Shown one piece after another: positions 59,194-64,000 of a stretch of 64,000 nt of DNA (positions are counted from its first letter, which is position 1; each line of letters starts with the position of its first letter). The stretch lies in the NCBI GenBank assembly GCA_950054155.1, contig CATLOT010000011.1, forward strand, positions 1 through 64,000. The letters are read 5' to 3'. The notes beneath the pieces were generated by a model. It made no database searches. It had not been told where the DNA came from and was given only the letters and a program-made list of their open reading frames with translations. The stretch comes from an uncultured Bacteriovoracaceae bacterium (GTDB lineage Bacteria; Bdellovibrionota; Bacteriovoracia; Bacteriovoracales; Bacteriovoracaceae). A program made the translations under genes and the position numbers.

Positions 59194-59441
59194 AGCTCTT
59201 TCTTCTCTCCTTAACAGTCGTTGGTCTCGCTATTCTTGGAATGGCCGTCGGAGTCATTATCAGTAATAAGAAGCTTAAAGGCTCCTGTGGTGGCCTTGGC
59301 GCTATTATGGGTGAAGATTGCATGTTCTGCGATAAGAAAGAAGAGTGTGAAGAAGAGAAAAAAAGAGAGGCCATTTTAAAGGCCCCTCTTGATATTGATT
59401 CTGATTCAGGTCTTGTTCAGCTTAAGAATCTCGTCGATTAA
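59190..59441 (+). CDS. nqrM: NqrM, Na+-NQR maturation factor
   Basis: 83 aa. One N-terminal transmembrane helix followed by [21 protein letters not shown], whose cysteines are characteristic of the DUF539/NqrM family thought to deliver iron to the NqrD/NqrE centre. It overlaps apbE by four bases, and its TAA stop directly abuts the stop of the convergent cyclase gene. Confidence 0.93.
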
Positions 59442-61670
59442 TTACTTTGATGTCAGAGTCCAGACACCATCCCAATTTGGCGGTGGCGGTACCTTTATAT
59501 ACTCTTCACAGCGCTCAATATAAATTTCACTTGGATTAGTCTTTACTCCCTTAAGCTCAGGGAAACGCTGGTATTCTAATTCCAGTGTCTCTTTAAAAGT
59601 ACCAAGGGCTTCTTCAAAGCGTTGGGCCTTATAAAGTGAGAGGCCAAGGGTGAATTTTTCAGCGAGTTCCTTAAGAAAATCTGGTGCAGAGTCTTTTAAC
59701 CCTAGAAGATCATAACTGGTAACGGGCACTGATTTTCCCATCACCCGAATGGTATCAAGTTCTCGCCATAGAAAATCGTCTCCAGCGAGTTCTACAGTTT
59801 CTTTAGCGACTTGAGTGAAGATGCCATATTGCTTGGCTGACTCTTCGAGGCGGGCTGCGAGGTTCACGCTATCTCCCATCATTGTATAGTTCATTCGCGA
59901 GGCGGAGCCCATATTTCCGGTCACGATTTCACCGGAATTGATCCCAATTCTCATGCGCATTTCATGAACAATTTGCGGCCACTTGTCTCCTTCGCCTTGC
60001 CACTTGATGCGAAGCTGAGCGAGTTTCATCTGCATTTGATGGGCGACGAGGCAGGCGCGGTGAGCGTGATCTTCAAGAGGCATGGGAGCGCCAAAGAAAG
60101 CGATGATGGCGTCACCCTCATACTTATCAAGGGTGCCTTTTTCTTCAAGAAGAATGTCCGTCATAGCGGTAAGGTATTCATTGAGAAGCTCTACAAGTTG
60201 AGTAGCAGTTAGCTTTTCTGAAAAGGTTGAGAAGCCTTGGATATCTGTGAAGTAGGCCGTTCGTACCCCAGAGTCTCCACCAAGCTTTGGAGGCTCACCA
60301 CTTTTATACATTTCATCAATAAGTTCTGGAGAGATATAGTTTCCAAAAGCACTCTTTAAAAAAGCCTTGTCTTTATTGGCGAGATAAAAGTGGAGAAAGG
60401 TATTCCACATGTAAATACCAATGATGGAAAAGAGAATGAAGAAGAGCTTAATCTCATAGCCCTCTGGAGTGAAGTGATTGATGTCGGCATAGAAGGCTCC
60501 ACTTGAGATTAAGATAGCCCCGAGAACATCGAAGAGGGGATTTCCGAGGAATTGAATAATGATCATCAGAAGCGAGCCGCCGATCAAGAGATACCAAGAC
60601 CACTTCACGGATTCGGCCATGGGCTTAAAGAAATTTCCTTCAAGCAGCATATGAAGCATATTCATGTGAAAGAAAACCCCTGGCATAAGAGGGTCCACCG
60701 GGGTGTGGCGCAGGTCGTGAGCACCATAGGCCGTTGATCCAATGAAGACGACATTACCATTGAAGGCCTGTTTGAGGATGGGATCATCATCGGCTGCATT
60801 GAGAACATCCCAAAAACTATAAGTGGGAAAATGGCCTTCACCACCTAGCCAGCGCACTTTTGTTTCACCGAGATTATTAAGATGAAGGTCGCCACTTTTA
60901 AGCTTTAAGACGTATTCGCCGTAGTTGAGCATTTCAAGGGTGATGCTGTCGCCTGTATAGGCCTCATAGGTCGCGAGTGAAAAGCCTGGAAGATAGAGGG
61001 TTTCAACATTTCCAACCAAAGGGTAGTGGCGAAGAAGACCATCTTTATCGGCTTCAACTTGAATGTGGGCGAGAGCAACATCTTTTTCTGATATCTGAGG
61101 AATGGGGAAGACTCTTCTCTCAACGTACATCTGACGGGTGTTTAAGCCTTCACTTTGCTTGGTGTCCATGACAAAGTTGTAGAGGACATCAGGCATTTGC
61201 TCAAAGATCTCCTCTGGATAGCTTGAAAGAGAGTAGGGAATGACAACTCGATTGCCATCGACACTTTGAAAGTTCGCCATCGCCTCTGTGAATTCACTAT
61301 CTACATTAGAGCCTGGACACACAAGGGCCTGTTCTGAAAAGAAGACGTCATAGGCGATGACCTTTGCGCCAAAATTCTTAAGCTTATTCATCAGACGAGT
61401 GTAGTTTTCACGGGGAAAAGGCCACTTTCCAATTGCTTTAATCGATTCATCATCGATGGCAACAAGGGTAACACGCTTATCAATTTTAGATTTATCACGA
61501 ATGAGATTCTCTCGATAATCATAGAAGCGCGACTCAAAGAGAGAGGTAAAAGCAAAATTACTCTTTGTTTGATGGCTTTCTTCTCTAAATCCTACGGATA
61601 TCAGAATACAAAGAGAGGAGAAACCTAGGATTAAAAAGACTCCTAGGTATTTAATAATTTTTGACCACAT
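59442..61670 (-). CDS. CHASE2-domain class III adenylate cyclase (cassette 2)
   Basis: 742 aa. N-terminal membrane helix, an extracytoplasmic CHASE2 sensor (~30-350; VTLVAIDDESIKAIGKWPFPRENYTRLMNKL, GAKVIAYDVFFSEQ, NVVFIGSTAYGAHDLRHTPVDPLMPGVFFHMNML), three helices (~355-430), then a cyclase domain. Metal Asp in YFTDIQGF and YEGDAIIAFFG; Lys in LDKYEGD and Asp in MMGDSVNLAARLE indicate ATP rather than GTP; Asn and Arg of NLAARLE complete the site. A ~70-residue tail resembles one TPR. It follows the TPR/barrel gene by 13 bases, which suggests that envelope cues control cAMP production. Confidence 0.93.
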   Translation of the reverse strand: MWSKIIKYLGVFLILGFSSLCILISVGFREESHQTKSNFAFTSLFESRFYDYRENLIRDKSKIDKRVTLVAIDDESIKAIGKWPFPRENYTRLMNKLKNFGAKVIAYDVFFSEQALVCPGSNVDSEFTEAMANFQSVDGNRVVIPYSLSSYPEEIFEQMPDVLYNFVMDTKQSEGLNTRQMYVERRVFPIPQISEKDVALAHIQVEADKDGLLRHYPLVGNVETLYLPGFSLATYEAYTGDSITLEMLNYGEYVLKLKSGDLHLNNLGETKVRWLGGEGHFPTYSFWDVLNAADDDPILKQAFNGNVVFIGSTAYGAHDLRHTPVDPLMPGVFFHMNMLHMLLEGNFFKPMAESVKWSWYLLIGGSLLMIIIQFLGNPLFDVLGAILISSGAFYADINHFTPEGYEIKLFFILFSIIGIYMWNTFLHFYLANKDKAFLKSAFGNYISPELIDEMYKSGEPPKLGGDSGVRTAYFTDIQGFSTFSEKLTATQLVELLNEYLTAMTDILLEEKGTLDKYEGDAIIAFFGAPMPLEDHAHRACLVAHQMQMKLAQLRIKWQGEGDKWPQIVHEMRMRIGINSGEIVTGNMGSASRMNYTMMGDSVNLAARLEESAKQYGIFTQVAKETVELAGDDFLWRELDTIRVMGKSVPVTSYDLLGLKDSAPDFLKELAEKFTLGLSLYKAQRFEEALGTFKETLELEYQRFPELKGVKTNPSEIYIERCEEYIKVPPPPNWDGVWTLTSK

Positions 61671-61683
61671 AAGGGACCCTTAA

Positions 61684-63300
61684 TTAGTAACTGGCACTTA
61701 TTTCAAAGCGCACAACATTCTTCTTATAATCAAAACTATTCTTATCTTTTGAAATATTCTTCGTGTAATCAAAGCCTAGTGTTGCTGAGATTCGTTTTCC
61801 AAAAGCCTTCTTAATTTCAATCGAAGGAGCAATCGTTTTCTCTGTACCACGTGTTGCGCTTTGCTCTTTAGTGTCAAGGGCGCTAAGGCTCATTGTCGCG
61901 GTGAGAGTATAGGTCGGCCAGATCTCAGGCCAGAGATAGTCGGTACGAAAGATAAAGTTATTCGTGCTCGTATTAGAATTATTATAGGTATCAATAAAGT
62001 CAGCTCTTAAGAGAAAGATGAAGAGGTGACCCCATGACGTACTCTTAATTTGATCCACAGAGATTGTCTTTGTCTTATTAAAGAGAGTCTCTGTGTAAGC
62101 ACGATAGTCTTTATAGGCGAATTTAACTGTCGTCGGGCCAAAGTTAAAGAAGCGAAAACGCTCGCCAACTGTAAAGGTCCAGGCGCGAGAGAAGAAGTTC
62201 TTCTCTTTAATCCCTTGCGCGTCTCTTCCAATATAAACATATTCAAGGTCATAGAGGAGGTTGGCCTGTTTTCCAAAAGCACTGTGCTCATAGGTATTTC
62301 GAGAACCCATTGTCATATTATAGGTGTCATTTTTAAAGACAGTGCTGTCTTCTCTTTCTGTGTGGTAAACATTACGAAAGCGAAAGAAGGGGGTGAAGGT
62401 AAAGCGTTTCTTATGAGCGAAGAGGTATTGAAAGTTAAAGTTTGTCTCATGGATAAAGGTATCTTTTTGAAGAGAAGCTGCAGTGGGGACATCGGTTGCT
62501 AAGGTGATATTGCTGTCTCTTGAGATTTGATGGCGAAAGCGCGCGCTAAAGCGCTGTTCTTGGAGAACACGACCATTTTCCATGATATTGGGATCAAGTC
62601 CATACTGGCGCTGAATTTCCTTTCTTCTCTTTTCAATGTCCTTTGCAAGTTTTCCGTCGGGAAGGGTACTAAAGGCCTGGTTAAGGGCAGGAAGAACATA
62701 CTTATCAACGAGCCTAGCAGAGTCATCTCTATTTTCAGCGAGGGCGAGAAAGGACTCTGAAAGTTGAAAACGCGCAATTTGTTGCATCTTCTTATCATTC
62801 TTGCTCATTTTGATAAGCTTTGAGTAAAAGTCTCGTGCCTTCTTATGCTCCTCTAAGAGCTGAGAGATATGGGCCATATAATAGAGTGAACTTTCTTTTT
62901 TAAAGCCTTTTTCAAAACTTTGAGAAAAAGCGTCTCTCGATTTTAGAAGTTCATTATTGGCATAGAGTGCTTGTCCATACTCATAATGAAGATCATCAGC
63001 TTTGTGTTTTTTTTGCAGGGACTTCTTAAAAGATTCGGCGGCCTGATCATATTGTTGAAGGCGGTTTTGAATAAGTCCTTCTAGATAGTAGCGAGTGGCG
63101 AGGACCTTTCGGGGGGACTTTATTTTCTTAAGGGAGTCGAGTGCATCGCTGTACTTTGCTAACTTAAATTCTTTGAAGGCTTTGATGAGGTGAACATTCT
63201 TATACTTAGCGTGAAGGGGAGTAGAGAAGAGGGAAATACAAATAAAAATCTTTAAGAACTTCAAGATTCCAATCCTTTTTGATGCTCGATCCATGAACAA
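61684..63300 (-). CDS. Exported TPR protein with C-terminal beta-barrel-like domain (cassette 2)
   Basis: 538 aa; signal peptide ending near STPLHA (start at 63300 or at the next Met, 63294). TPR-like helices at ~35-220 (ATRYYLEGLIQNRLQQYDQAAESFKKSLQKK, YEYGQALYANNELLKSRDAF), then strand-rich sequence to the end (NVVRFEISASY, a C-terminal aromatic). Paralogous to 22798-24390 over its whole length. Lies between the FecR gene and the cyclase gene and probably links them, for example as an outer-membrane sensor or export channel; this role is inferred. Confidence 0.8.
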   Translation of the reverse strand: MFMDRASKRIGILKFLKIFICISLFSTPLHAKYKNVHLIKAFKEFKLAKYSDALDSLKKIKSPRKVLATRYYLEGLIQNRLQQYDQAAESFKKSLQKKHKADDLHYEYGQALYANNELLKSRDAFSQSFEKGFKKESSLYYMAHISQLLEEHKKARDFYSKLIKMSKNDKKMQQIARFQLSESFLALAENRDDSARLVDKYVLPALNQAFSTLPDGKLAKDIEKRRKEIQRQYGLDPNIMENGRVLQEQRFSARFRHQISRDSNITLATDVPTAASLQKDTFIHETNFNFQYLFAHKKRFTFTPFFRFRNVYHTEREDSTVFKNDTYNMTMGSRNTYEHSAFGKQANLLYDLEYVYIGRDAQGIKEKNFFSRAWTFTVGERFRFFNFGPTTVKFAYKDYRAYTETLFNKTKTISVDQIKSTSWGHLFIFLLRADFIDTYNNSNTSTNNFIFRTDYLWPEIWPTYTLTATMSLSALDTKEQSATRGTEKTIAPSIEIKKAFGKRISATLGFDYTKNISKDKNSFDYKKNVVRFEISASY

Positions 63301-63392
63301 ATATTCTTTTGATCATTATAGCTAAAGGACTGATTTTATTCTAGAGTTGCTCTTTTTACCCTTTGCTTCAAAGCAGAGCAGTCGGTTATTGA

Positions 63393-64000
63393 TTACTCCG
63401 CATTAACGTTGAAGTTTACATTGGAACTTTGGGTGCCTCCGAAAATAAGATTATTATCCGAGTTATTAAAGTCCTCAAAGGTTTCATTATTCTCACTCAT
63501 CTGTTCATCAACTAAAGAAGCAAGGTTAGGATCAAGCTCTGGAGCAGAACCGTCGCCACTTGAGCCAAAGCTTGGTGGTGGGGGCACATCGCCTTCCATC
63601 ACAGAGTCCATCATTTCTGGATTAATATTGTCCATCATTGTGGGAACCATGGTTACTGTTGGTGGCGGTGGGGGAGCGCTTTCACTCTTTGCTCCAGAGT
63701 CAGCGCTGGCCGGAGCACGTGTTCCAGGAGTTGGTGAATTGCTGGCTACTTCTTTTGGTTTCTCACTAAAAGAGCCATCCTCATTGAGAACAAAGTGATC
63801 ATTCATATAGTTTCCAGTTGCGGGATCAATTCCACCCATCTCTGGTGGGGGGACATAGACGCCAGCATTGGCATCAAATGTGGAACCCGGTGGTGGTGGG
63901 ATATACTGTGCTGTTTTAATATCGACAAAGCCACCCGCTGTTGGAGCAATTTGTCCTGTTTTCATATTGATGGAACCTTCTGGAGGAGCCGTTTGTGCTG
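63393..64000 (-). CDS. FecR-type protein, C-terminal part only (cassette 2; 5' end beyond window)
   Basis: The reading frame is open to the window edge, so this is the last ~202 residues of a larger protein. Four ~16-residue proline-rich repeats are visible (EGSINMKTGQIA, GGFVDIKTAQYIP, GSTFDANAGVYVP, GGIDPATGNYM), matching those of the FecR protein at 21457, then a polar tail rich in Pro, Ser, Asn and Asp with PPPPPTVTMV and PPPPSFG. The FecR domain itself would lie outside the window; its presence is inferred from the paralogue. Followed by the TPR/barrel gene. Confidence 0.75.
   Translation of the reverse strand, partial: AQTAPPEGSINMKTGQIAPTAGGFVDIKTAQYIPPPPGSTFDANAGVYVPPPEMGGIDPATGNYMNDHFVLNEDGSFSEKPKEVASNSPTPGTRAPASADSGAKSESAPPPPPTVTMVPTMMDNINPEMMDSVMEGDVPPPPSFGSSGDGSAPELDPNLASLVDEQMSENNETFEDFNNSDNNLIFGGTQSSNVNFNVNAE

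Follow-up and report, generated by a model that had tools for sequence, protein, structure and literature searches.

A split-gene FecR, TPR-barrel and CHASE2-cyclase cassette in a Bacteriovoracaceae bacterium, probably an NsrA/CyaK-like envelope-to-cAMP signalling system

Three consecutive genes of an uncultured member of the Bacteriovoracaceae specify a FecR-domain protein, a TPR-barrel protein and a CHASE2 adenylate cyclase. Together they probably form a split-gene, NsrA/CyaK-like system which would convey signals from the cell envelope to cAMP, running from the barrel through FecR and CHASE2 to cAMP and thence to CRP-type regulators and a Bd1971-like phosphodiesterase. The domains, the folds, the gene linkage, the intact catalytic residues and the presence of a single class III cyclase in the genome were established by computation.

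The window, i.e. the whole stretch of DNA that was analysed (64,000 bases), represents bases 1-64000 of a 97,671-base contig (C11) of a 3.5 Mb genome. Its features are listed in Table 1. The initial annotation had recognized three consecutive minus-strand genes at the end of the window, with the cyclase and TPR genes 13 bases apart; both the genes and the gap (13 nt) are as described, the third gene crossing the window end. On the complete contig these are the last three members of a five-gene cluster (DUF3943, OMP, FecR, TPR-barrel and CHASE2-cyclase), within which the genes are separated by anything from a 1-base overlap to 105 nt. Just 3' of the cyclase stop codon, inside the convergent nqrM gene, a consensus scan revealed a terminator-like hairpin with a 10-pair stem, six G-C pairs and a T run. 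Terminator-like matches showed no excess across the region (6 observed vs 9.1 in shuffles), and promoter scanning of the region gave candidates at no more than the shuffle level. The FecR and TPR-barrel genes may share a transcript with the cyclase, judging solely by gene order. The stop codons of nqrM and the cyclase abut on opposite strands at 59441/59442.

Table 1. Features of the cassette and of the paralogous cassette in the same window (C11, contig numbering)
Feature	Position	Strand	Remarks
DUF3943 protein	C11:65642-66451	-	First gene of cluster in transcription order; Pfam
OMP_b-brl protein	C11:64965-65642	-	Second in transcription order; Pfam
FecR-domain exported protein, 488 aa	C11:63393-64859 (63393..64000 in window)	-	Third in transcription order; Pfam FecR
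TPR-barrel protein, 538 aa	61684..63300	-	Fourth in transcription order; AlphaFold2
CHASE2 class III adenylate cyclase, 742 aa	59442..61670	-	Fifth in transcription order; Pfam
Terminator-like hairpin	59363..59390 (L003 5364-5391)	-	Consensus scan only
Paralogous FecR-domain protein, 432 aa	21457..22755	+	Pfam FecR E 3.1e-12
Paralogous TPR-barrel, 535 aa	22783..24390	+	35% identical to 61684-63300 product
FHA and coiled-coil cytoplasmic protein, 343 aa	24463..25494	+	Pfam FHA E 1.5e-18

By its sequence the product of the third cassette gene is a CHASE2-domain class III adenylate cyclase with an intact active site, in agreement with its original assignment. The Pfam matches lie far above the cut-offs (CHASE2, E 1.9e-48; Guanylate_cyc, E 4.4e-23). 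An N-terminal transmembrane segment (residues 9-27) is followed by CHASE2 (41-368), a membrane region (approximately 358-427) and the cyclase domain (471-648), so that CHASE2 is flanked by hydrophobic segments and precedes the class III catalytic domain. The catalytic residues are all in place (Asp476, Asp520, Lys516, Thr596, Asn603 and Arg607), invariant in 20 relatives and aligned with those of solved adenylate cyclases. From general knowledge of class III cyclases we take Asp476 and Asp520 to be the metal-binding aspartates, Lys516 and Thr596 to bind adenine, and Asn603 and Arg607 to act on the transition state. The C-terminal tail (about PPPPxWDGVxTxTSK; window 59442-59490, minus strand), well outside the catalytic domain, is also highly conserved in 20 relatives.

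The second gene had been taken to encode an exported protein with TPRs and many beta-strands, and the prediction of both a TPR and a barrel fold bears this out. The protein has 538 residues if translated from a TTG codon, the ATG two codons downstream being the likelier start, and begins with a hydrophobic segment. Its AlphaFold2 model (51-sequence alignment; pLDDT 92.3, pTM 0.77) displays helices from residue 35 to 231 and then 14 long strands (250-536). In structural comparison with VIA-align, CymA (Z 22.0) and OmpG (Z 20.8) matched the barrel half; matches of the helical half were to TPR domains at Z 19-20 and to TPR proteins such as YrrB (Z 19.3) and MamA (Z 18.7). Structure prediction thus points to an exported periplasmic TPR solenoid joined to a 14-strand outer-membrane beta-barrel. 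Its best-conserved stretch is a TPR helix (103-113, LHYEYGQALYA), as would be expected of a partner-binding surface. In the barrel, strands and loops are similarly conserved and, therefore, no ligand site is argued for.

Of the FecR gene, the window includes no more than the last 201 codons. The encoded protein possesses a hydrophobic, export-signal-like N-terminus and a single FecR domain (residues 55-157; Pfam E 5e-11), located beyond contig position 64000. The initial annotation spoke of a FecR-type repeat protein: the FecR domain is real, if single and outside the window, and the repeats, which occupy the C-terminal half, are short proline-rich beta motifs rather than FecR. The fold was modelled with AlphaFold2 on the in-window paralogue, using 35 relatives, which gave a confident FecR domain (20-220), a small beta-repeat domain (approximately 275-355) and a disordered tail. 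The best solved match of this FecR model is the cell-surface signalling domain of PupR (6ovk; Z 15.5, rmsd 2.6 over 143 residues), followed by the putative anti-sigma factor 4m0n (Z 14.4).

Conservation of the gene order was assessed in two partly overlapping collections, a first set of 59 genomes (58 relatives and the window's own) and a second, named collection in which relatives were found by sequence; these are nearly all Bacteriovoracia or members thereof (Bacteriovoracaceae, Halobacteriovoraceae, Bacteriovorax), and comprise metagenome-assembled genomes and a few isolates. A cultivated relative with the cassette is Bacteriovorax sp. BSW11_IV (L175). A TPR-barrel match was present in 38 of the 59 genomes. 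Among the neighbourhoods fetched, the FecR gene lay upstream of the TPR-barrel gene on the same strand at 44 loci (gaps of -26 to 239), and the TPR-barrel gene upstream of the CHASE2-cyclase in 15 genomes (gaps of -37 to 41 nt). In the named collection FecR adjoins the TPR-barrel at 50 of 55 homologous loci and the TPR-barrel adjoins the cyclase at 24 of the 55, so that the linkage predicted at the outset does occur in relatives. In the window and the fetched relatives alike, FecR and the TPR-barrel each have a gene of their own, and the order FecR, TPR-barrel, CHASE2-cyclase is kept in family members down to approximately 30% identity. Chance does not account for this order, which was met in 15 family genomes and again at 24 loci in the second collection. 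Roughly half of the relatives have the FecR/TPR-barrel pair by itself and the cyclase at another site, and hence the three genes are not an obligate unit. As evidence of a unit, the conserved context is strong for FecR with the TPR-barrel and weaker for the cyclase as their fixed partner. The CHASE2-cyclases of other Bdellovibrionota families mostly have no FecR neighbour, a single locus (L136) being the exception among those fetched.

A second cassette on the plus strand of the same window contains paralogues of FecR and the TPR-barrel, with the place of the cyclase taken by an FHA protein devoid of any hydrophobic segment. The FHA gene is linked at six TPR-barrel loci, which constitute one clade on the TPR-barrel tree, and this form was seen in the window's genus. 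Points against the signalling interpretation are that the pair is often alone, that its paralogue is accompanied by a cytoplasmic FHA protein, and that no relation in sequence could be detected between the barrel and that of NsrA. A broader proposal, which we consider improbable, is that FecR and the TPR-barrel form a portable outer-membrane sensing module of the Bacteriovoracia wired to different outputs (a CHASE2 cyclase and cAMP, or an FHA phospho-threonine reader), and that in the predatory lineage it would report a surface cue such as prey contact, via the sole class III cyclase, into cAMP-gated breakdown of c-di-GMP.

The genes might also have stayed together in one bacterial family through descent, without any joint function. 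The linked TPR-barrels do cluster, the cyclase-linked, FHA-linked and unlinked states requiring five changes in all on the TPR-barrel tree vs 27 in shuffles, and synteny seems to extend to the hemF side of the locus. The stand-alone cyclases of other relatives are several times found beside a gene of approximately 300 codons resembling hemF by size and position, the window's copy being the only one identified. Against this, the FecR/TPR-barrel pair is kept in several different contexts, the linkage recurs in Proteobacteria and Campylobacterota, the gaps are of a few nucleotides and the parts are fused in NsrA. Furthermore, the remnant locus of one family genome (G012) keeps DUF3943, the OMP gene and a TPR-only piece, with no FecR, barrel half or cyclase detected. 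Descent by itself is, accordingly, a highly improbable explanation.

The initial annotation stated that no described system was known with this gene order; two comparable ones have in fact been published. In Sinorhizobium meliloti, experiments have shown that neither NsrA nor CyaK can be dispensed with when the cell responds, through cAMP, to a protein signal from outside, free ribosomal uL2 being one example (PMC7529298, PMC13001267). NsrA of pSymB of strain 1021 (1219 aa) contains a FecR domain (85-179; E 2.3e-15), TPRs (397-606) and a C-terminal region which is a barrel by published prediction, and the end of its gene coincides with the start of cyaK, specifying CHASE2 and a cyclase. In both systems, therefore, the sequence just upstream of a CHASE2 class III cyclase gene specifies a FecR domain, TPRs and a predicted outer-membrane barrel. 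Profile comparison indicates homology of the cyclases and of the FecR domains: the window cyclase aligns with CyaK over its full length (E 1.6e-60, 31%) and the FecR protein matches the FecR domain of NsrA at E 4e-7. For the TPR-barrel, comparison with the C-terminal half of NsrA using hhalign gave no match (probability 0.1, NsrA being supplied as a single sequence), and no homology to this half or to the TPR proteins of Paracoccus and Shinella was detected, hhalign having returned generic TPR similarity only. The two systems differ in that NsrA is a single chain with a barrel of approximately 600 residues, whereas the window has separate FecR and TPR-barrel genes, a 14-strand barrel and two extra genes (DUF3943 and OMP) upstream. 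Because of the separate genes, we describe the cassette as one that would work like NsrA rather than file its product as an NsrA protein. The fused form in NsrA argues that the split proteins interact.

The second published case is that of the Campylobacterota, in which every adenylate cyclase is a CHASE2 protein and most are encoded in clusters together with FecR, TPR and phosphodiesterase genes, proposed to act in one pathway (PMC9239204); there, the phosphodiesterase is a fourth gene. Three-gene clusters of TPR, FecR and CHASE2-cyclase were also found on plasmids of Paracoccus and Shinella, and at all 11 loci sampled on alpha- and betaproteobacterial plasmids FecR is fused to CHASE2, beside it or one gene away. 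Close upstream of the Paracoccus cluster lies the gene of a cyclic-nucleotide-binding, patatin-like phospholipase (L153 167-1993), a possible cAMP effector. In the BiofilmReg operon of Burkholderia and relatives (PMC5192318), a periplasmic FecR-domain protein again adjoins a CHASE2 sensor; its FecR protein carries LysM, its output is a histidine kinase with a response regulator, and it has no TPR-barrel. In ECF sigma-dependent cell-surface signalling of the FecR/PupR type, the FecR fold resembles the PupR signalling domain and an outer-membrane barrel is the presumed input; the window FecR protein differs in that its N-terminus looks like an export signal and a transmembrane anti-sigma part is missing, its barrel partner combines TPRs with 14 strands, and no ECF sigma or TonB-dependent transducer genes were found among those read around the cassette. 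The general system is thus already known, and the cassette is a split-gene variant of envelope-to-cAMP signalling. As far as our searches show, the Bacteriovoracia add to it a split-gene layout in which the TPR-barrel has 14 strands, a cluster of five genes, a paralogue linked to FHA and the context of a sole class III cyclase.

The BcsC, PgaA and Slam transporters likewise join a TPR solenoid in the periplasm to a barrel in the outer membrane, and the main rival explanation is an export or surface-display module of this type (like BcsC/PgaA, or the type XI translocon Slam), in which FecR would be cargo or a periplasmic adaptor; the cyclase would be a neighbouring regulator that acts separately. 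BcsC, a TPR-barrel exporter, is the top whole-chain Foldseek match, and the FecR model bears a weak resemblance to the anchoring domain of a surface protein (5ix9, Z 6.9). The FecR partners in Paracoccus and Shinella (L153 3856-5823, L155 2762-5311) possess weak, sub-threshold C-terminal matches to TbpB_B_D/FHBP_C, the signature of Slam cargo; from their sequences, the alphaproteobacterial proteins with such tails may be secreted by the type XI route through the TPR proteins encoded next to them. These tails, and the occurrence of the pair alone or with FHA in many genomes, keep export in contention. On the other hand, the barrel is closest to CymA/OmpG, the cassette contains no substrate, polymer synthase or TbpB-type cargo genes, and Pfam detected no TbpB_B_D domain in the window's FecR protein. 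PF04575 (Slam) did not match the window's TPR-barrel at E up to 1 and was absent from the 25 families matched by most of 51 members at that limit; TPR_Slam was weakly matched by 33 of the 51 (best 1.5e-4). A Slam identity was set aside, as PF04575 gave no match in this comparison; a TbpB_B_D cargo beside the barrel is likewise missing. NsrA, moreover, has an equal domain set and is needed for cAMP signalling. We regard export as unlikely, while still the best of the rivals. A PHROGs look-up returned nothing for the barrel and unnamed families only for the cyclase.

The cassette's CHASE2-cyclase is the one PF00211 cyclase of the genome, and the search for class I enzymes, the other class covered, found none. 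The genome gave 12 cNMP-binding matches, among them a CRP-like regulator and a protein with cNMP-binding and EAL domains (L228 532-1785, minus strand; contig C13) which aligns end to end with Bd1971 (E 8.4e-91), the cAMP-sensing c-di-GMP phosphodiesterase of Bdellovibrio (PMC6717892). A second cNMP match falls in a 419-aa frame at C22:46024. The genome also encodes a CHASE2 histidine kinase of 626 aa (L034 5859-7739; contig C1), and a CHASE2 protein of about this size occurs approximately once in nearly every family genome. Four of 37 family genomes (G009, G012, G032 and G034) are without a class III cyclase, and all four also lack an intact TPR-barrel (uncorrected Fisher p 7.6e-5). When corrected on the tree of the CHASE2 kinase the co-loss was not significant (median p 0.25); it cannot reach significance since only three independent losses were scored, all in the same direction.

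Putting these results together, the TPR-barrel would be held in the outer membrane by its 14 strands, the TPR arm reaching into the periplasm, and the exported FecR protein would span the periplasm, one end on the TPR arm and the other on CHASE2 of the inner-membrane cyclase. The occupancy or conformation of the barrel would alter the contact between FecR and CHASE2 and so set cAMP synthesis. The cAMP would then act on CRP-type regulators and on the cAMP-gated c-di-GMP phosphodiesterase resembling Bd1971, the gene of which lies at another site in the genome. The order of contacts is proposed because of the NsrA fusion and the adjacency of FecR and CHASE2. We infer the contacts between the proteins, that of FecR with CHASE2 included, as well as a ligand, the downstream steps and the choice between activation and release of inhibition. 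Passage of a signal from the barrel and FecR to CHASE2, as first suggested in the initial annotation, is plausible: it fits the Sinorhizobium precedent, the linkage and the folds, with the reservation that many relatives do without the three-gene unit.

The cyclase could also be on by default, FecR and the TPR-barrel being either its targets, in a reversal of the direction, or a check on envelope integrity that would keep CHASE2 inhibited until the barrel is properly assembled. The published working model of NsrA, as cited in PMC9239204, is inhibition of the transmembrane cAMP enzyme, and a FecR-domain gene is among the Clr/cAMP targets in S. meliloti (PMC5498481); against this stands the fact that a transcript shared with the cyclase is read from gene order only. 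We think a reversed or checkpoint arrangement improbable, and retain signalling from the envelope to cAMP as the preferred reading.

For NsrA/CyaK, knowledge of how a Gram-negative cell relays a surface cue through two membranes to cAMP is genetic rather than mechanistic. With its parts on separate genes, a compact barrel of 14 strands and a single class III cyclase to consider, the present variant should be easier to dissect. For bacteria of this predatory lineage such a system would provide a defined cAMP input; in Bdellovibrio, cAMP is sensed by the c-di-GMP phosphodiesterase Bd1971 (PMC6717892).
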